Assembly: GCA_016235345.1 (NCBI GenBank)
Contig: JACRLG010000006.1
Location: forward strand, 1-64,000
From: Deltaproteobacteria bacterium
GTDB lineage: Bacteria; Desulfobacterota; Desulfobacteria; Desulfobacterales; Desulfatibacillaceae
Reading direction: 5' to 3'
Length of the DNA stretch: 64,000 bases
Shown here one piece after another: positions 42,861-64,000 of the stretch. Below the pieces are notes generated by a model. It had not been told where the DNA came from and searched no databases. It saw nothing but the letters and a program-made list of their open reading frames with translations. The position numbers were made by a program, and so were the translations under genes. Position 1 is the stretch's first letter; each line of letters starts with the position of its first letter.

Positions 42861-43013
42861 GCAGGACTCAAAACCGGCGGACGGTTCTTCCTTTTTGGTT
42901 TTGTTGAAGGTCGGCTTTCCCCATTGCCGGAAAGGCGAAAATATTATCCCTGCGGCCTCGGCTGCCAATGTAACCTACTGTTTTTCGCAGACTAATCATT
43001 GGAAGCGGATGAC

Positions 43014-44219
43014 ATGGAAATTGAAAAACGCCTTAAAGGCACGAGGGCGGGGGCGATTTCCCAGGAGCTGTTCACTAACAGCATCCATTTCCCGCTTGCG
43101 AACATTTTCCTGGAACTGCTGCTAAAGGGGCCCCTGGCATATTTCAGGGAGCCCGATCCTTACACGATAATATTTTCCTGCTGTGTTCAGGCCATGTTTA
43201 TCGGGACCTGGAAATATCATGGAAAACCCAGCCGCCGCTTGTTGGGCAACCTTATCGCTCCCGCGCTTTATACGGGCATTGAATTTTTTTTCGAGGGCCC
43301 GATTTTTTTCACGGGACCCAACCACGTTGCTTTTCTTGGTTTCGCCTTTACCATAGGGTTGCTTCAGGAAATCGAAGAAAGGGCATCGGGCAAGTCGCAT
43401 GACGTAATAACGATTTTCATTCATCTTGTGCGTACTTGCATACTGTTGGTCATGTACGGTATTTTCGAGGCCATTACCGAGCCAAAATACAACAGTATCG
43501 GAAAATTTCTTTCCAATGACAGCCATCTTTTCGTAGCAATAGTCATACCTTTATTGGGCGTTGTTTTGGGAATGGCCAATGTTACCGCCAATCGTTATTT
43601 GAGTCTTTTGCAATACACTGCCGGTCAGCTTAAAAAATATTCCGAATGGCTGTTGGGAAGGCAGCTTTTATCGGCGGCAATCACTGATTCAGAATCATTG
43701 AATCTTCAAAGAAAGAGGCGGACCGTTTTTTTCATGGATATACGGGGTTTCACGAAATGGAGCGAAGACAAGTCGCCAGAAACCGTTGTAAACATGTTGA
43801 ACAACTATTTTGAAAAGGCTGAACAGATATGGAAAATATCTGATGTGATAAAGGTAAAGCATACTGCAGATGAAATAATGGCGGTTTTTCCTGATGAAAA
43901 GAGCGCGTTGAAGATAGCCATGACCATCAGCCATGAAATAAACAATTTTTTGAAACAATACGGGCTCTCGTCAGGTGCAGGGGTCCACGCTGGCCATTTG
44001 GTGGAAGGCCTGGTCGGGAGCAGGGAGGTAAAGGTTTATGACGTAATCGGGGACACCGTCAACACAGCCAAAAGAATATGCGACCACGCGCTTGGAGGCG
44101 AGGTTCTGATCTCTGAGGAAATCCATGACAAGGTAAAGGATATTGAAGTCAATCCCGAACCCAGGTTTTTACAGGCCAAGGGGAAGAGCAAGCCTTTGAA
44201 GGTTTTTTCCCTGCAATGA
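43014..44219 (+). CDS. Membrane-anchored class III adenylate/guanylate cyclase
   Basis: 401 residues from the ATG at 43014 (a TTG at 42999 is also possible). The N-terminal ~210 residues contain several hydrophobic spans (FIGTWKYHG, FFTGPNHVAFLGFAFTIGLL, LVRTCILLVMYGIF, FVAIVIPLLGVVLGMANV). The C-terminal catalytic domain (~240-400) has metal Asp residues in FFMDIRGFTKWS and HTADEIMAVF, and the DVIGDTVNTAKRIC segment with transition-state Asn and Arg. The second metal motif reads A-D instead of G-D. It should make cAMP (Lys in IKVKH points to ATP). No partner gene is adjacent. Confidence 0.85.
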   Translation: MEIEKRLKGTRAGAISQELFTNSIHFPLANIFLELLLKGPLAYFREPDPYTIIFSCCVQAMFIGTWKYHGKPSRRLLGNLIAPALYTGIEFFFEGPIFFTGPNHVAFLGFAFTIGLLQEIEERASGKSHDVITIFIHLVRTCILLVMYGIFEAITEPKYNSIGKFLSNDSHLFVAIVIPLLGVVLGMANVTANRYLSLLQYTAGQLKKYSEWLLGRQLLSAAITDSESLNLQRKRRTVFFMDIRGFTKWSEDKSPETVVNMLNNYFEKAEQIWKISDVIKVKHTADEIMAVFPDEKSALKIAMTISHEINNFLKQYGLSSGAGVHAGHLVEGLVGSREVKVYDVIGDTVNTAKRICDHALGGEVLISEEIHDKVKDIEVNPEPRFLQAKGKSKPLKVFSLQ

Positions 44220-44472: not shown

Positions 44473-44808
44473 TCAGGCGAGGGCGTTGAGGGCGGCTTCC
44501 ACCGACTCGTCTAGCTGGAAGATGGAGTCGAAACCGGAGACTTCGAACACTTCCTTTATTGCGCCGGTCACGTTGGCGAAACGCACCTGTTTCCCCTTGG
44601 CCGAGAGGAGCTTGGCGGTCACCAGAAGGCCCCGCAGGCCGGCGCTGGATATGTACTCCAGGCCCGTGAAATCCGCCACGAAATGGCAGTCGTCCCCTTC
44701 GATCAGAACCCGCACGTTTTTTTCGTACTGCGGAGCGGTGACGGCGTCCAGCCTGCCGGTAAGGGTCATGACGGTCGCGCCGCCTGCTTTTTGCGTAAGA
44801 ATCTCCAT
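44473..44808 (-). CDS. STAS-domain anti-sigma-factor antagonist (RsbV/SpoIIAA-like)
   Basis: 111 residues, a single STAS domain: ATVMTLTGRLDAVTAPQYEK, FTGLEYISSAGLRGLL with the phosphorylatable Ser, and a C-terminal FEVSGFDSIFQ. Such proteins are switched by an RsbW-type kinase and a PP2C phosphatase. It is the last gene of the ABC-transporter operon, 26 bp after the ATPase gene, whose product has an RsbW-like C-terminal domain. A direct interaction between the two is therefore likely. The 253 bp beyond its stop hold no recognisable gene. Confidence 0.9.
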   Translation of the reverse strand: MEILTQKAGGATVMTLTGRLDAVTAPQYEKNVRVLIEGDDCHFVADFTGLEYISSAGLRGLLVTAKLLSAKGKQVRFANVTGAIKEVFEVSGFDSIFQLDESVEAALNALA

Positions 44809-44834
44809 TTATGGTTCTCCCTGAATGGTATTCG

Positions 44835-45926
44835 TCAGCTTTTTTTCATGGTAAGCACTATACGGTTCCGGTCATTGATCCTGTGATATTCGATATTTTC
44901 GGTAAGGTTGCGGATGATGGAAAGCCCCATCTCGTCGGGCAGCCCCCCGCTTTCAAGCGGATTGGCGGACGGGCCTCCGCTTTCCCATGTCAGCTCCAGT
45001 TTTTCGGTCTTTTCGGAAAAGGCGATGGTTATGTTCAAAGTCGCTGAACCCAGGATCGGCGCGTGGACCTGCAGCATCTCCTCGACAAGCAGAAGCAGGC
45101 CGTGCCTGGTCTTTTTCGGCAAAATGTGCTTTTCGCAGAAGGCCTCTATCTCGGCGTTCATGGCATAGAGGTCGTAATCGGGCGAAGTTATGGTCCAGCC
45201 GAGGCTCCGTATCCTGTGGATGAAGGCCTTCGTCTTCTCGCGCCTGGGGTTTTCGAAAATCTCCTCCGGCGTCCCTTCCTCGTAAATGCCCCCCTCGTCC
45301 ATGTAGAGAACCCGGCTCGCCACGTCCCGGGCGAAATCCATCTCGTGGGTTACTATGGCCATGGTCATGCCGTCCTCCGCCAGACGCCGGATGACCGAGA
45401 GCACCTCGCTTACCATTGTTGGGTCAAGGGCGGACGTGGGCTCGTCAAAGAGTATTATCTCAGGCTCCATGGCCATGCACCGGGCTATGGCCACCCGCTG
45501 TTTCTGGCCGCCGGAAAGCTCGTCGGGATAGCTTTGCGCCTTTTCGGCGAGCCCCACAAGCCGCAGAAGCTCCATGGATTTGCGCTCCGCGTCCCGCCGG
45601 TTGAGGCCCTTGAGCTTCATGGGGGCTACGGTCAGGTTTTCCAGGGTGGTCAGGTGATCGAAAAGGTTGAAGGACTGGAAGACCATGTTCATTTTTCGGC
45701 GGATTTTGGGCACGTCCGTTTTTTTGTCTAAAATGTCCACTCCGTCTATGTGTATGGAGCCTGCGCTCGGTCGTTCCAGCAGGTTGAGGCAGCGCAGGAA
45801 GGTGCTCTTGCCGCTGCCGGAAGGACCGATTATGGCGATGACCTCCCCCTTGTTTATCTCGATGGAGATGTCTTTGAGCACCTCGGTATCGCCGAAGTTC
45901 TTGGAAAGGCCCTCAACCGTTATCAT
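44835..45926 (-). CDS. Amino-acid ABC transporter ATPase fused to an RsbW-like HATPase domain
   Basis: 363 residues. Residues 1-~243 are a complete GlnQ/HisP-type ATPase: Walker [18 protein letters not shown] signature, Walker [14 protein letters not shown], and IVTHEM. Normal family members end near 245. Here ~115 residues follow ([20 protein letters not shown]...[26 protein letters not shown]), with the shape of an anti-sigma-factor serine kinase (HATPase_c_2). The N-box ([12 protein letters not shown]) lacks the Asn and the D-x-G box reads ESGGP, so ATP binding or kinase activity may be weakened. The gene overlaps the permease gene by 4 bp and precedes the STAS gene. Confidence 0.88.
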
Positions 45927-48178
45927 GCCGCCCCTCCGTTTCTACGCCTGAGCCTCGGATTGGTCCTCTTGTCCAGGTAGTCAAGCGACAGCATCAGAAA
46001 CCAGGAAATGGAAAAATAAAGCACCGCCACCATCACAAGCGGAAAAAACGCGTCAAAGGTCCGGCTGCGGATTATGTCGCTGGCCTTGGTGAGGTCCTGC
46101 ACCGCTATATACCCCACGATGGAGGTCATCTTCACGAGGGTGATGAAATCCCCCTTGTAAACCGGGATTATGCGCCGCACTGTCTGGGGCAGGATGATGG
46201 TGACGAAGGTTCCGGCCCTGGTGAAACCCATGGCGATGCCCGCCTCGGCCTGCCCCTTGTCCACTCCCTCTATGCCTGATCGGAATATCTCGGCCACGTA
46301 GGCGGCGAAGTTGAGCCCGAAGGCTATAACCGAGACCAGCACAGGGCTTATGTTGACCGAGGCGAAGACGACGTAATAGATCAGCATCAGCAGGACCAGC
46401 ACCGGAATGCCGCGCAGAACGGAGATATAGACCTGGGCTGGCAGGTTCAGCAGGCGTTTTTTCGACATTCGCATGAAACAGACCAGCCCGCCCAGAAGCG
46501 TTCCCAGTATGGTGGAAAACACAGAGATCACCATGGTGGTTTTGAGCCCGTCCCAAATCAGCAGGTATCGGTTTTCCAGTATGATGTTGCTGTGAAAGCT
46601 CTCTCCGAGCCCCTTGAAAAACGCGGAGAACGCCCCTTTTTTTTCGGGCGGGGTCGGTTTTTGATATTGGGCTATGTTTTTCTTCAGGGCAAAGGCCACG
46701 GAGTGCAGCTCGTGATAGGGATCGGAAAAGGCGATCCGCTTTTTCCTTTCCTCGGTTATGGCTATGGTTGCGCCGACCATGTCTATTTTTTTGGTGGCCG
46801 CCGCAGCTATGATGCTGCCGAACTCCATGTCGTCGTACTTGATCCTTTTGCCGATGAACGCGCCGAACCTGTCCAGAAGCTCCACGTTGAAGCCGATCAG
46901 CTTTCCGTCCTTCACGATGGCGAAGGGAAGCCCGTTGTCGCCCAGGATTCCCACCGTCAGCACTTCATCGGTGGAAGCGGGGGGGATGACCGGCATGACG
47001 GTGTCGCCTTTTTCCATCCAGCGTTTCACCATGTCGTCATACTGGCCGTTTTCCCTTATGTGCTTCAGAAAACGGTTGAACGCGGCCAGAAGCTCCACGC
47101 TTTCCTTGTTGAAACCGATGGCAGCCTGGCTGGACCAGAGGGGCTCGCCAAGGACCGCAAGCTCCTTGGCCTCCCTAAGGAAAATGGCCACCTCGTCGTA
47201 GGTGTAGACCGCCGCGTCGGCCTTCCCGGATTTGAGGGCCAGTATCATGTCAAAGGGCGTCTTGAAATGAAGCACTGTGGCCTTGGGAAAGGTCTTCGTG
47301 GCCCACTTGTCGTGGGTGGTGCCCAAAATGACCGCTATTCGCTTGTCGTATAAATCGTTCACGGAGTACAAAAGCCCGGCGGCGTTTTTATCCCCGACAG
47401 GCTTTTTTACGATCATCACCTGCTTGTTGGCGAAATATGGCTCGGAGAAATCCACCGATTTTCTGCGCTCGCCGGTGGCCGTCATGCCGCTTATGATGCA
47501 ATCGATTTTACCCGATTGAAGGGCCGGAATAAGGGCCATGAATTTCATGTTGAAAAACTCAACGGGCCTTTTTAGCCTTGCCGCAATTATTCTGGCCAGT
47601 TCCGCGTCATGGCCCGAAACCTTTCCGTTTTTGTCCACAAAGGAAACCGGCTCGCGGGTGGCGGTAACTCCCACTTTAAAAACCGGCCCCTCGGTGGAGG
47701 CCTGGGGGCTTTTGTCCTCGTAGGGCGAAAGATCAGCCTTGAGCCAGCGCCTTTTCATGTCAGAAAGGGTGCCGTCGCTTTTAAGCTCCGCAATGATCCT
47801 GTTCAAGGCGGCCAGCATTTCCGGGTCGCCTTTTTTAAGGGCGATGGCCGTGTCCTCGTTGGTAAGGGGTTCGGGAATGATCGTAAATTCGCGGTTCAGC
47901 TTCAGAAGATGGATGGCGGTGGGCTCGGAGATCACCACAGCGTCCAGTTGACCCGAACTCATGGCGGCGATTCCGTCCATTACATCGTCAAAGCTCTGAA
48001 GGTCGGCTTCGGGAAACCTGGCCTTTGCCACGGCTTCCCCGGTTGAGCCCACCATTACGCCGATTCTGGCGTGTTCGGCGTCCTTGAGCGTCGACAAGGC
48101 TGTCTCTTGCCCATTGCAGCCTGCTGTGAAAACGGCGGAAAAAACCGCCAGCAATATTGCTGAAACAAACCTCGCCAT
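45923..48178 (-). CDS. Fused periplasmic binding protein and amino-acid ABC permease
   Basis: 751 residues. Lipoprotein signal ([13 protein letters not shown]). Residues ~30-150 match only the second half of an SBP_bac_3 domain ([22 protein letters not shown]...[13 protein letters not shown]). Residues ~165-395 are a complete SBP_bac_3 ([12 protein letters not shown]...[12 protein letters not shown]). Residues ~408-510 match only the first half ([23 protein letters not shown]...[12 protein letters not shown]). The two halves could pair around the complete domain. Residues ~545-740 are the HisM/GlnP permease with the EAA loop ([20 protein letters not shown]). It would import polar amino acids or similar solutes with the ATPase encoded downstream. 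Confidence 0.88.
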
Positions 48179-48293
48179 GCGAACTTTCCTTACTCTCCTG
48201 CCTGGCCGGAAAAATGGCTGGTAAAAAGCGCCTGATGGAACCCGTCACCAAAAACGTTTCGGGACGGGTTCCGATGACAGAAAGACCGATCCT

Positions 48294-49091
48294 TTATTTC
48301 TGCTTGGGCTCGCGCACGAGGGCCGCTATTCCGCCCGTGTAGTAAGGCTCGGAGAAAAGGACTTTTTGGGCCCGCTCCTCAGTGACCGTTATGCAGGCTG
48401 CGATCATATCAACCTTGCCTGAGATCAGGGCGGGAATCATCGCACCGAAATCCATGTTGACGATCTCCAGCTTCTTTCCGAGCTTCCGGGCCACGTGCTG
48501 CGCCAGCTCGATGTCGAAACCCACCACTTTCCGGGAGGCGTCCATGAATGAAAAAGGCTCGGTGATGGCTGCTGTGCCGAGCCTCAGCACTCCCGCCTCG
48601 CCGGTTAAGGGCAGGTCGGGCATGTTCGCCGGAGCGCCGGATTTGGGAAACCACCTCAGCATCATGGAGTCGTATGCGCCGCTTGCCTTGAGTTCGGCCA
48701 GAACGCCGTCGATGGCCGTTTTCAGTTCCTTGTTGTCGATGCCCACTGCCACCGCGTAGTTGTCCACGGTTATCATTTCAGGCAGCACCACAAGCCCGCT
48801 GTTTTTTGCGGCGATGTTCTTCAGGATGGGCTCGTCATAGGCCGCCACATCCGCCTTGCCGGTTTTTACCGCAAGCGCTGCGTCAAGAACGCTGTTGAAG
48901 TACTGGAACTTGGCCTTGGGGAACTTCGACAGAACCAGCTTGTCGGCGGCTGTCCCGGACGGAACGGCGAACTCGCTCTCACTCAGTTGGGAAAGGCTCG
49001 TTATTTCGGCCTTGCCCTTGCAGCCCGCAGCGGCCAGCAGCAGCAGTATTGCAATTCCGCAAAAGACAGTCTTCGCTTTTTTGGTCTTCAT
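48294..49091 (-). CDS. Circularly permuted SBP_bac_3 lipoprotein
   Basis: 265 residues with a lipobox (LLLLAAAGC, Cys ~23). The first part (VPSGTAADKLVLSKFPKAKFQYFNSVLDAALAVKTGK...LKASGAYDSMMLRWF) is what normally forms the C-terminal half of a family-3 solute-binding protein. The second part (LRLGTAAITEPFSFMDASRKVVGFDIELAQHVA...VLFSEPYY) normally comes first. The order is thus swapped, giving a permuted domain. It is the first gene of the transporter operon (AAGGAG before the ATG). It may deliver ligand to, or regulate, the SBP-permease fusion 115 bp downstream. Confidence 0.85.
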   Translation of the reverse strand: MKTKKAKTVFCGIAILLLLAAAGCKGKAEITSLSQLSESEFAVPSGTAADKLVLSKFPKAKFQYFNSVLDAALAVKTGKADVAAYDEPILKNIAAKNSGLVVLPEMITVDNYAVAVGIDNKELKTAIDGVLAELKASGAYDSMMLRWFPKSGAPANMPDLPLTGEAGVLRLGTAAITEPFSFMDASRKVVGFDIELAQHVARKLGKKLEIVNMDFGAMIPALISGKVDMIAACITVTEERAQKVLFSEPYYTGGIAALVREPKQK

Positions 49092-61944: not shown

Positions 61945-63240
61945 TCACAGGCTGAAAAGGACTATATCGCCGTGGCCGGCATAGGGCATGACAAGGCGGG
62001 GGACAAAGCCTGCGTCCATAACAGGGCTTATCCATTCGGCCTGCCAGGGTCTTCCCAGATCGAGGCTGAAATAGACGCCGCCCGTGCTTTCCGGCCCAAG
62101 GGCCGCGATATGGGCCGCCAGGTTCTCCCTTACGTCCTTTCCACGGGAAACGGGCCATAATGTGGCGGTTTTTCGGGACCGGTCAATTTTGGCGAAAAGA
62201 ACCGATGGCTGCGCCGCATGGCTTTCGGTAAGGCCGCTTTTGAGGATTTTTCGAGGAAGCGCCAAAAGCCCGTATTCCTCTTTCAAAAATGGTTCAAGCC
62301 TTTCGTCGGCCCATACCGAGCTTCCGGGGTCCTCGTGCATCTGCCGGAAATAATGGGGAATGCTCCGCAAGGCCCCGTCAAGGCCGGTTATGGGCAGCTC
62401 GCCTATGAGCTCGAAGTAATGGACCGGCAGGTCATGGTTGGGCCTGCGGTTCAAAAGGCCGAGAACCGGCAGTTTCGCAAGGCTTTCAAGGCAGCCGTTC
62501 AACAGCCCCTCGCAAAGGGCGGAATCGGCTTCCTCAGTAAGGATGTAAGGCCCAAGGCATTGCGCGGTTTTTGCTCCCGCCGTCCATTCCCACTCGATGC
62601 CCCCCAGAATCTCCCCTCCCTGGCTGACGGCGATGAGGGCGCAGCTTTGCCCGTGGCGCAGCATGTCCGCAAGCATTCCGGGATGGGCGAAAACCCTGGG
62701 TACCTCTTCGGGCGGATAAACAGCGGCCACGGATTCGGCGAGAAAAAAGGCCTCCTCCGGCTCAGGCGTCCGAACGGTGAAGGAGTCCGATGGCTTCGGT
62801 CGCTCTCTGCTATCGGCTTTTGCCTTCTCGTAGTTCTTTTCCTTGGTGAGGATGAGGGTGATTTTGTCGTCACCGCCGGTTTCCACGGAAAACCGGTCAA
62901 CCATGCGGGAGGCGATGAGAAGCCCAACCTCGTCCAGACCCTGTTCGTCGGAGATGTCAACTCTTGAAGTCAAGTTGAAACTGTGAAGCGGAAAATGCCT
63001 TGCGGAAAACCCGAACTCAATATTGACGCATGACCCTCCCCATGAAGAGCGGATGGAAAGCTCCTGGCCGGGGCTTGTGCGGCACAGGTACATGAAGATT
63101 TCCTCGGTGGCCATCCCGACCCGCATGGACTCCTTCTGGCCGAGTCCCAAGGCAGTTGAGCTTTTTTCCGTCATGGCCCTTGCCACGGGAAAAAATTCCG
63201 GGCTGGCCGGGACATCCAGGCGGATGATGGGATTTTTCAT
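61945..63240 (-). CDS. HATPase (RsbW-like) domain fused to a GNAT-like domain
   Basis: 431 residues. Residues ~1-135 look like an anti-sigma-factor kinase domain (FFPVARAMTEKSSTALGLGQKESMRVGMATEEIF...GLLIASRMVDRFSVETGGDDKITLIL), but the N-box Asn is not visible (ATEEIFMYL), so activity may be lost. Residues ~155-431 are GNAT-like (VRTPEPEEAFFLAESVAAVY...ALIAVSQGGEILGGIEWEW...), similar in order to the GNAT at 58562. It is the first gene of the operon 63240-58562, 10 bp before the aminotransferase. It could tie acetylation or sensing to partner switching. Confidence 0.75.
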   Translation of the reverse strand: MKNPIIRLDVPASPEFFPVARAMTEKSSTALGLGQKESMRVGMATEEIFMYLCRTSPGQELSIRSSWGGSCVNIEFGFSARHFPLHSFNLTSRVDISDEQGLDEVGLLIASRMVDRFSVETGGDDKITLILTKEKNYEKAKADSRERPKPSDSFTVRTPEPEEAFFLAESVAAVYPPEEVPRVFAHPGMLADMLRHGQSCALIAVSQGGEILGGIEWEWTAGAKTAQCLGPYILTEEADSALCEGLLNGCLESLAKLPVLGLLNRRPNHDLPVHYFELIGELPITGLDGALRSIPHYFRQMHEDPGSSVWADERLEPFLKEEYGLLALPRKILKSGLTESHAAQPSVLFAKIDRSRKTATLWPVSRGKDVRENLAAHIAALGPESTGGVYFSLDLGRPWQAEWISPVMDAGFVPRLVMPYAGHGDIVLFSL

Positions 63241-63293
63241 GATTCGGAATCCTCGCTAATGCAGTAAAACTGAGCCGGTTTCAATCCTGTTAG

Positions 63294-63480
63294 CAGCCCG
63301 TTTAAAAAGGCCGGATATAACGCCTGGATAAAACGATGAAGCGCAAGGAGAGCGAGAAGCCAATGAGAAGCGTACCCGCCCAAGAAATCGCAGAGTTCTT
63401 GGGCTAAATCAGGATGTTCGTACGTGACCGAAATTGGCTTCGATGCACGACACCGCGATTCGCGTTTTAGCCAGGCGTTA
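63294..63480 (+). repeat. Structured dispersed repeat, copy 3 (long form)
   Basis: 187 bp with nested inverted repeats: outer CGCCTGGATAAAACG / CGTTTTAGCCAGGCG (one mismatch), middle GAAGCCAAT / ATTGGCTTC (perfect), and an inner perfect 9-bp stem GCCCAAGAA / TTCTTGGGC. It shares both flanking arms with the copy at 36319 but has a larger tip. It ends exactly at the stop codon of the PP2C-HATPase gene and fills the gap to the next operon. Confidence 0.8.
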
Positions 63481-64000
63481 GCGTTTTTTTCTTTTCAGCA
63501 TGATCATGCGGTTGCCCGTTTCGGTGGCGGGTTCGTAATGCACGCTGTCCATCACCTTCTGCATCAGAAAAAGGCCTATCCCGCCCACGGGCTGGTTTAT
63601 GTCCGCCTTGCCGTCGTATTTTATGCGCTTGTTCTCGAAATCAAAGGGCCTGCCGAAATCGGTTACAATAACCCTGATTCCGCCCGGAAAGGCCCCAAGC
63701 GTCACCTCCATTCGGTTATCGCTCCTGCCCCCGTATGCGTGGTCAATGACGTTCACCACGGTTTCCTCGAGGGCCAGGTTCACCTGCTTCATCTCGTCTT
63801 CGGAAAGCCCTGTCTCTTCCCTTAAGGCTGCGGTGAACGCGAAAAGAGGGGCAAGGGAAGAAAGGGATGCCGGAATCTCCATCGTAAATACCGGCCCGGT
63901 CTCCTCGATGGAAAACTGCACTGTCCTGTTGAGAACCTCGGTCGGGCGGCCCACGCAAAGCACTGTTATGTCGTCGTTTTGCGCCGCGTCACCCGTGAAA
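63478..64000 (-). CDS. C-terminus of a PP2C (SpoIIE/RsbU-like) phosphatase fused to an RsbW-like HATPase (partial)
   Basis: The frame is open to the right window edge. The first visible residues (FTGDAAQNDDITVLCVGRP) are the typical end of a SpoIIE-type PP2C domain, with the conserved N-DD-I. After a short linker comes a well-preserved HATPase domain (~110 residues): N-box LALEETVVNVIDHAYGG, D-x-G in VIVTDFGRPFDFENK, and GGIGLFLMQKVMDSVHY. Combining phosphatase and kinase in one chain gives a self-contained switch for an RsbV-like partner. The N-terminal sensory part is outside the window. Confidence 0.85.
   Translation of the reverse strand, partial: FTGDAAQNDDITVLCVGRPTEVLNRTVQFSIEETGPVFTMEIPASLSSLAPLFAFTAALREETGLSEDEMKQVNLALEETVVNVIDHAYGGRSDNRMEVTLGAFPGGIRVIVTDFGRPFDFENKRIKYDGKADINQPVGGIGLFLMQKVMDSVHYEPATETGNRMIMLKRKKR

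Follow-up and report, generated by a model that had tools for sequence, protein, structure and literature searches.

How does an amino-acid importer come to be encoded together with the parts of a partner-switching signal? The question is raised by a four-gene operon in a 64,000-nucleotide stretch of DNA from a Deltaproteobacteria bacterium (assembly GCA_016235345.1, contig JACRLG010000006.1, positions 1 to 64,000; hereafter the window), in which the ATPase of an ATP-binding cassette (ABC) transporter is extended by an additional C-terminal domain and a STAS gene comes next. What is encoded next to such fused ATPases in relatives suggests control of uptake by a switch that has so far been described chiefly in gene regulation. 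An earlier note, made from the window sequence alone, had described the operon as a permuted binding lipoprotein, a binding-protein/permease fusion, an ATPase with an RsbW-like tail and an RsbV-type STAS protein. All four genes lie on one strand where it had placed them, and the Pfam and NCBIfam classes agree for each product: SBP_bac_3 and BPD_transp_1 are found together in one protein of 751 amino acids, and the STAS gene (STAS E 6.5e-18, ant_ant_sig over its cut-off) does begin 26 bp past the ATPase gene, the start of which overlaps the stop of the fusion by 4 bp.

The identity of the ATPase tail is central to this question. Scanned alone, it matches HATPase_c_2 with E 2.1e-5 (25.0 bits, just below the curated Pfam cut-off of 27.4), and 51 of the 81 tail domains that were aligned match this family at E <= 0.01, the best at 7.2e-9. 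An AlphaFold2 model of the tail, built from the alignment of 81 sequences, has a pLDDT (predicted local distance difference test) of 92.8 and a pTM (predicted template modelling score) of 0.87. In a Foldseek search with this model the eight top rows are all UsfX, RsbW or SpoIIAB chains. The best match in VIA-align 2 is 8ih8_C, i.e. UsfX in the UsfX-RsfB complex (Z 12.9, 113 residues, 2.6 Å); anti-sigma or partner-switch kinases take the first eleven ranks (Z 10.8-12.9), a single response regulator comes next with Z 9.9, and histidine kinases begin at 7.6. Judging from their titles, seven of these eleven entries (8ih8, 6m36, 6m37, 1th8, 1tid, 1til and 1thn) include a STAS antagonist. Searches of the PDB by sequence, with the single tail sequence (E up to 1) or with a profile (E up to 10), returned nothing relevant, so that the placement comes from fold comparison only. 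Based on the AlphaFold2, Foldseek and VIA results, ATPase residues 243-363 are assigned to a predicted RsbW-fold domain.

Whether this domain could still be a kinase can be read from its conserved positions. The position of the N-box Asn is occupied by Leu, Ile, Val or Met in all 81 aligned tails and the Asp of the DxG motif is absent from all 81, while the Glu pair of the N-box (E282 and E283) is kept throughout. In addition, the domain positions D10, L11, Y12, F21, E40, E41 and E63 are invariant in the 81 sequences and form a tail-specific signature. With both the N-box Asn and the DxG Asp lost, the tail is a pseudokinase and very probably no kinase. A one-protein RsbW, in which the tail would actively phosphorylate the STAS protein on serine, would agree with the fold and with the retained E282 and E283; given the residue counts, and given that an N-box-intact kinase is encoded nearby in 18 of 27 loci with a STAS gene, we regard it as highly improbable and have rejected it. 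The earlier note thus fares well as regards the tail: the extra RsbW-like domain (HATPase_c_2 E 2.1e-5, pLDDT 92.8, VIA Z 12.9) is found as a HATPase fold by profile search and by structure prediction alike, its HATPase motifs are degenerate as described, and the part of the claim that has the tail acting without phosphorylating agrees with the residue counts.

The 111-residue product of the last gene consists of a STAS domain only and lies above the family cut-offs (PF01740 64.9 bits in Pfam; TIGR00377 ant_ant_sig 70.5 bits in NCBIfam, cut-off 53.45), which by profile places it in the RsbV type. An SS[A/V/T/S]G motif is present in 29 of 29 aligned STAS proteins from loci with a fused ATPase; by analogy with RsbV and SpoIIAA its serines are the candidate phosphorylation site.

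Relatives were collected by a scan of one genome per species with the window ATPase as query, of which the best 80 of 117 were kept; these match along nearly the whole ATPase. As the scan began from the fused ATPase, the loci are selected for the fusion. By record title they come from Geobacter relatives, Chlorobiaceae, Methylococcales, Nitrosomonas, Burkholderiaceae, Bacteroidota, Gemmatimonadota and others. A downstream flank of 400 bp or more is available at 74 loci: 23 of them have a same-strand STAS gene no more than 110 bp away, and 27 have one at up to 1.3 kb. A gene for a free RsbW protein of fewer than 200 amino acids accompanies 18 of the 27 STAS loci at a distance of up to 1.5 kb downstream (same strand in 11, opposite strand in 7), a live RsbW beside the STAS gene that the earlier note did not mention. 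In contrast, a free RsbW does not occur within that distance at any of the 53 STAS-less loci, of which 42 have at least 1.5 kb of flank. The five free RsbW proteins that were scanned (L015, L023, L010, L044 and L027) match HATPase_c_2 with E 8e-19 to 1e-29. The N-box Asn is present in 19 of 19 free RsbW proteins (including that of L010), the G1 Asp and the GGLG motif in 18 of 18 each, and DxA replaces DxG in 8 of 18; the protein of L052 is cut by the contig end. Since L010 and L048 are identical in this region, the counts are not all independent. Among the 53 loci without STAS, eight have STAS-type matches farther off in their flanks, two of them weak (L067 and L093), and four of the eight (L047, L061, L075 and L081) also have an RsbW-type match, which in L047 belongs to an 807-residue protein whose gene lies on the opposite strand, 99 bp past the ATPase gene.

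As a control we used 29 loci with an unfused ATPase, found by searching 30 genomes of the window's order with only the ATPase core. A STAS gene downstream was found in 0 of these 29 (26 with at least 1.3 kb of flank, the others with 1026, 975 and 103 bp). With 6 STAS matches at E <= 0.001 in the 4.0 Mb genome of the window and none downstream of the 29 unfused ATPases, we rejected the idea that STAS stands there by chance. One control locus has, upstream of its unfused ABC ATPase, a 396-residue open reading frame (L129:154-1344) with a weak STAS match of 19 bits, perhaps a STAS-headed MlaE-type permease.

In the mechanism that we infer, from the dimer through binding and phosphorylation to gating and its sign, the polar-amino-acid importer would be a homodimer, as there is one permease gene and one ATPase gene, and would bear a pair of adjacent pseudo-RsbW domains at the cytoplasmic base; RsbW proteins, too, are dimeric. 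The unphosphorylated RsbV-type STAS protein would dock on these domains, a separate N-box-intact RsbW would phosphorylate it at SSxG and so release it, and a PP2C phosphatase would restore it. The docked STAS protein would shift the pairing of the ATPase halves and gate uptake, either activating or inhibiting it, in a manner similar to that of MlaB on MlaF. The kinase would be encoded adjacently in many relatives and elsewhere in the genome of the window, the candidates there being a HATPase_c_2 protein on contig C16 or a SpoIIE-HATPase protein that ends at window position 63478. For this proposal as a whole, in which the pseudo-RsbW domain docks the unphosphorylated STAS protein, a separate RsbW sets its phosphorylation and uptake is gated, we estimate a probability of about one half. 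We give slightly less than even odds to a reading in which the ATPase-borne anti-sigma kinase domain, itself dead, and a live RsbW compete for a single STAS protein, so that phosphorylation of this protein sets nutrient uptake with no transcription step.

The evolution of the tail provides further support. Using one ATPase tree with branch lengths fitted separately for core and tail, with identical rows entered once and with loci of less than 1.3 kb of flank omitted from the STAS-less set, the median tail/core ratio of terminal branches is 1.25 with STAS (28 tips) versus 2.36 without (43 tips; Mann-Whitney p 0.002), and the ratio of summed branches is 1.63 versus 2.40. When a Bacteroidota-like branch of 30 loci, 26 of them Bacteroidota-titled, is excluded, the medians are 1.22 (26) and 2.19 (24; p 0.011) and the sums 1.62 and 2.21. 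Within the Geobacter/Chlorobi group alone the values are 1.19 (10) with and 2.36 (13) without STAS (p 0.03). Relative to the ATPase core, the tail thus evolves 1.4-1.9 times faster where no STAS gene is nearby. In pairwise comparisons at 80-85% core identity, tail identity is 67% between STAS loci as against 54% for the remaining ones; where the cores are 65-70% identical, the two values nearly coincide (40% versus 38%). The tail is accordingly more tightly constrained where STAS is present. Columns 286, 290, 316, 335, 345, 353 and 261 are more conserved with STAS, at a threshold of our own choosing, and were given no weight; some of them lie at the old nucleotide pocket, near the SpoIIAA docking site.

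Several observations weigh against the gating proposal. No STAS gene lies within 1.3 kb in 47 of the 74 loci (42 of the 47 hold that much sequence) and the tail signature is still kept there, so that binding of STAS cannot be the sole role of the tail. The fused ATPase occurs in five of 395 genomes sampled in the window's phylum; of these five, the genome of the window is the only one with a STAS gene within about 1.5 kb. No RsbW gene adjoins the STAS gene of the window. Five STAS-less loci with a close STAS gene elsewhere in the genome show no tighter constraint (ratios of 2.36, 3.59, 2.76, 1.18 and 3.17), and, as the three sets of the branch-ratio test overlap and STAS status follows clade, which confounds the comparison, the constraint result is supportive and not decisive. 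Finally, according to the MlaFB report (PMC7367683), MlaB with Thr52Glu showed weakened binding and MlaB with Thr52Ala was inactive yet bound, which its authors found hard to reconcile with simple phosphoregulation.

A universal linkage with STAS was consequently rejected, on the 47 of 74 loci and on four of the five phylum carriers. The picture is one of dependence on clade, as the phylum sample, the Bacteroidota and the whole-genome searches give mixed results. A sixth match in the phylum sample, G396, is a free RsbW that adjoins a STAS gene. G156, from the window's order, has two fused copies, of which one is accompanied by STAS and RsbW and the other is not, and five named deltaproteobacterial loci have STAS (L015, L023, L026, L048 and L052). 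Only 2 of the 27 Bacteroidota-titled loci have STAS within 1.3 kb, some of the remainder having short flanks. The whole genomes of 16 STAS-less loci were searched: five hold a close STAS gene elsewhere (50-64% identical to that of the window), four of which adjoin an RsbW gene, with one of these (L141) lying behind a second fused ATPase, while in the other 11 the identity is at most 44%, one genome having no STAS at E <= 1e-6. Depending on the clade, the switch is hence encoded beside the fused ATPase, encoded apart from it or perhaps missing altogether. For the claims of the earlier note this means that conservation of STAS beside the fused ATPase stands in 27 of 74 loci as compared with none of the 29 unfused ones, and fails in the phylum sample (1 of 5), in the Bacteroidota (2 of 27) and for one copy of the pair in G156. 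Likewise, its self-contained switch stands as to the parts but not as a single RsbW/RsbV pair, the complete modules being composed of pseudo-RsbW, RsbV and a separate N-box-intact RsbW.

Persistence of the domain and its signature in the 47 loci without STAS, which include 25 of the 27 Bacteroidota-titled loci and one of the two G156 copies, is what would be expected if the tail were a structural regulatory domain derived from RsbW, a dimer clamp or a sensor of small molecules like the C-terminal domain of MetN, with the RsbV and RsbW genes clustered there in the service of another pathway. Such a role does not readily explain why a free RsbW occurs within 1.5 kb only where STAS is present too, why the STAS gene mostly stands directly after the ATPase gene and never does so in the 29 controls, or why the tail is more constrained with STAS, and we think it rather unlikely.

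The genome of the window has no partner-switch kinase next to the operon: the short HATPase_c_2 protein on contig C16 has 151-159 residues depending on its start, and of the four SpoIIE-type matches in the genome, including that in the protein ending at 63478, none adjoins the operon. A second partner-switch set lies 13-17 kb away (window 61945-63999 and L096:479-3202). It comprises a 431-residue protein that has no Pfam match at E 0.01 and resembles the HATPase-headed L086:4927-6411 (BLASTP 2e-9), a 788-residue SpoIIE-HATPase protein and a 107-residue STAS protein. Other arrangements were seen in relatives. At L141:228-2939, in the genome of L035, the second and more divergent fused ATPase is followed by STAS, RsbW and a window-like lipoprotein. 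At L134:130-1851 a close relative of the STAS protein heads a 573-residue frame and is perhaps fused to a further C-terminal part. In two Bacteroidota loci, L086 and L088, a 251-residue gene stands between the ATPase and STAS genes, the latter lying about 0.8 kb downstream of the former; next comes the gene of a 494-residue protein, which in L086 is HATPase-headed.

The same parts could also carry a signal in the opposite direction. The importer would then be the sensor, with the pseudo-RsbW domain sequestering or releasing RsbV by transport state, so that amino-acid supply controls another target of the live RsbW, a sigma factor or an enzyme. Anatomy and linkage fit this equally. At L138:1060-2796 a close relative of the permuted lipoprotein, a STAS gene and an RsbW gene stand in one run with no transporter in 3.3 kb, as if binding protein and switch were a sensing unit, and signalling genes lie behind STAS-less copies, namely a GGDEF protein (L068:7574-8449) and a 1073-residue protein with a head that resembles a binding protein by eye (L033:4574-7795). 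However, no sigma factor or recurrent RsbW target was seen among the downstream genes of 28 loci (by eye and with few Pfam scans), and the transporter would need to be abundant enough to titrate RsbV. We consider outward signalling, which uses the same parts as gating, unlikely on balance and only weakly disfavoured. By eye, the L138 run continues with a TolC-like gene; it belongs to the genome of L024, whose fused ATPase is without STAS. L037 has a 1090-residue gene at the place of the 1073-residue gene of L033, directly behind its STAS-less fused ATPase.

What the switch would act on is, by its sequence matches, an importer of the polar amino acid class (PAAT), with a family 3 binding protein, a BPD_transp_1 permease and a GlnQ/HisP-type ATPase. 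ATPase residues 1-239 score 312 bits with the NCBIfam GlnQ model, below its cut-off of 379, and the Walker and other ABC motifs are intact in residues 1-240 as read from the sequence. The permease part of the fusion matches the NCBIfam models for a cystine permease (residues 541-742) and for EhuC (540-739), both below cut-off. The window proteins match BPD_transp_1 and SBP_bac_3 in Pfam and neither MlaE nor MCE, which places the operon outside MlaFEDB.

The binding domains have a peculiarity of their own. In the lipoprotein, residues 40-149 align to residues 120-228 of the amino-acid-binding protein structure 6svf and residues 166-261 to its residues 9-104; with both halves in inverted order, the circular permutation proposed earlier is confirmed. 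Its Cys24 is invariant in 15 of 15 aligned sequences. The AlphaFold2 model of the lipoprotein (pLDDT 88.1) has its best end-to-end VIA match in OpuAC (2b4m; Z 11.8, 206 residues, 4.3 Å), and the alignments to unpermuted arginine-binding proteins (ranks 7, 9 and 10) cover just one half (91-92 residues, 1.6-1.8 Å, 42-52% identity). The fusion of the window, which has a lipobox-like ...FTAGC at its N-terminus as read from the sequence, is itself permuted and contains two units, a point not raised in the earlier note. With hidden Markov models (HMMs) of the half-domains, trained on the fused-ATPase loci, the fused permeases read as (C-N)n-permease with n from 1 to 4. The strict C-N order holds in 84 of the 86 reading frames that do not start at a contig edge, the exceptions (L022 and L049) having one partial extra half each; four permease frames have no binding unit. 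The two complete conventional binding proteins of the control loci have the N-C order.

The nearest known mechanism is that of MlaB on MlaF, and the nearest known parts are RsbV/RsbW and GlnPQ. As in MlaFEDB, the genes of an ABC transporter are accompanied by one for a STAS-only protein that would control the ATPase. There, MlaB binds and stabilises the ABC ATPase MlaF through direct contact with the nucleotide-binding domain, the MlaF tail has about 25 residues, and control of MlaB by phosphorylation was proposed, not shown (PMC7367683). In the family described here, in contrast, a whole predicted RsbW-fold domain is attached to the ATPase of an importer of the amino-acid class, and the gene of a candidate STAS kinase is often found alongside. 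The pairing of a STAS antagonist with an RsbW-fold partner, and the free N-box-intact RsbW in many relatives, are shared with RsbV/RsbW and SpoIIAA/SpoIIAB; unlike in those systems, one RsbW-fold copy lacks catalytic residues and is fused to an ABC ATPase, and no recurrent sigma factor neighbour was seen. MetNI and OpuA (tandem CBS domains) likewise have an ABC ATPase with an extra C-terminal regulatory domain. Their C-terminal domains sense small molecules or ionic strength, whereas an RsbW fold points to a protein ligand. GlnQ is not known to have an extra C-terminal domain. GlnPQ of Lactococcus also combines a GlnQ-type ATPase with tandem binding domains fused to the permease, but in the present family these domains are circularly permuted and number up to four. 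Natural circular permutation of ABC binding proteins has precedents in two reports, in which OpuAC (2B4L) is among the glycine-betaine-binding proteins with permutation relations (PMC2395249) and Tp0684 (MglB-2) is a permuted glucose-binding protein (PMC4990184). The ligands there are betaine or glucose; here the domains are of the amino-acid type and form arrays fused to the permease.

No report of an ABC ATPase fused to an RsbW-type domain was found among the open-access papers listed, judged by title and abstract start, with no search made by organism name, and neither 'ABC transporter' nor 'MlaB' occurs in the text of a review of STAS-only proteins (PMC8256260). The MlaFB authors left open how STAS on an ABC ATPase is regulated and suggested similar control in other ABC transporters (PMC7367683). 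The fused-ATPase family offers a testable case, in which kinase, STAS protein and docking domain are encoded side by side. If the gating proposal is true, partner switching extends from transcription factors to transport, the RsbW fold gains a pseudokinase role, and the family represents a widespread form of ABC transporter control that is unreported as far as the literature searches reached. Moreover, it provides a natural series of permuted binding-domain arrays, with one to four units on one permease.

Coordinates of the operon and its parts in the window (positions counted from the first letter of the window; aa, amino acids)
Feature	Position	Strand	Basis
Operon, four genes in one direction	49091 to 44473	minus	Open reading frames read from the sequence
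Amino-acid-type substrate-binding lipoprotein, circularly permuted, 265 aa	48294..49091	minus	Pfam SBP_bac_3; halves inverted relative to 6svf
Lipoprotein C-half, residues 40-149	48645..48974	minus	Aligns to 6svf residues 120-228
Lipoprotein N-half, residues 166-261	48309..48596	minus	Aligns to 6svf residues 9-104
Fusion of two permuted binding domains and permease, 751 aa	45923..48178	minus	Pfam SBP_bac_3, BPD_transp_1; C-N-C-N order
Fusion, first permuted binding unit, residues 39-257	47408..48064	minus	Half-domain HMMs
Fusion, second permuted binding unit, residues 281-495	46694..47338	minus	Half-domain HMMs
Fusion, permease domain, residues 540-742	45953..46561	minus	BPD_transp_1 559-739
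ABC ATPase with extra C-terminal domain, 363 aa	44835..45926	minus	ABC_tran 128.5 bits; HATPase_c_2
GlnQ-like nucleotide-binding domain, ATPase residues 1-240	45207..45926	minus	GlnQ model; motifs from the sequence
Predicted pseudo-RsbW domain, ATPase residues 243-363	44838..45200	minus	AlphaFold2, Foldseek, VIA, column counts
RsbV/SpoIIAA-type STAS protein, 111 aa	44473..44808	minus	STAS E 6.5e-18; ant_ant_sig above cut-off
Ser54-Ser55 of the STAS SS-x-G motif, candidate phosphorylation site	44644..44649	minus	Motif in 29 of 29 aligned STAS proteins

Beyond the operon, a class III nucleotide cyclase (Guanylate_cyc in Pfam; window 42999-44219), with a probable membrane part by eye, is encoded convergently with the STAS gene.

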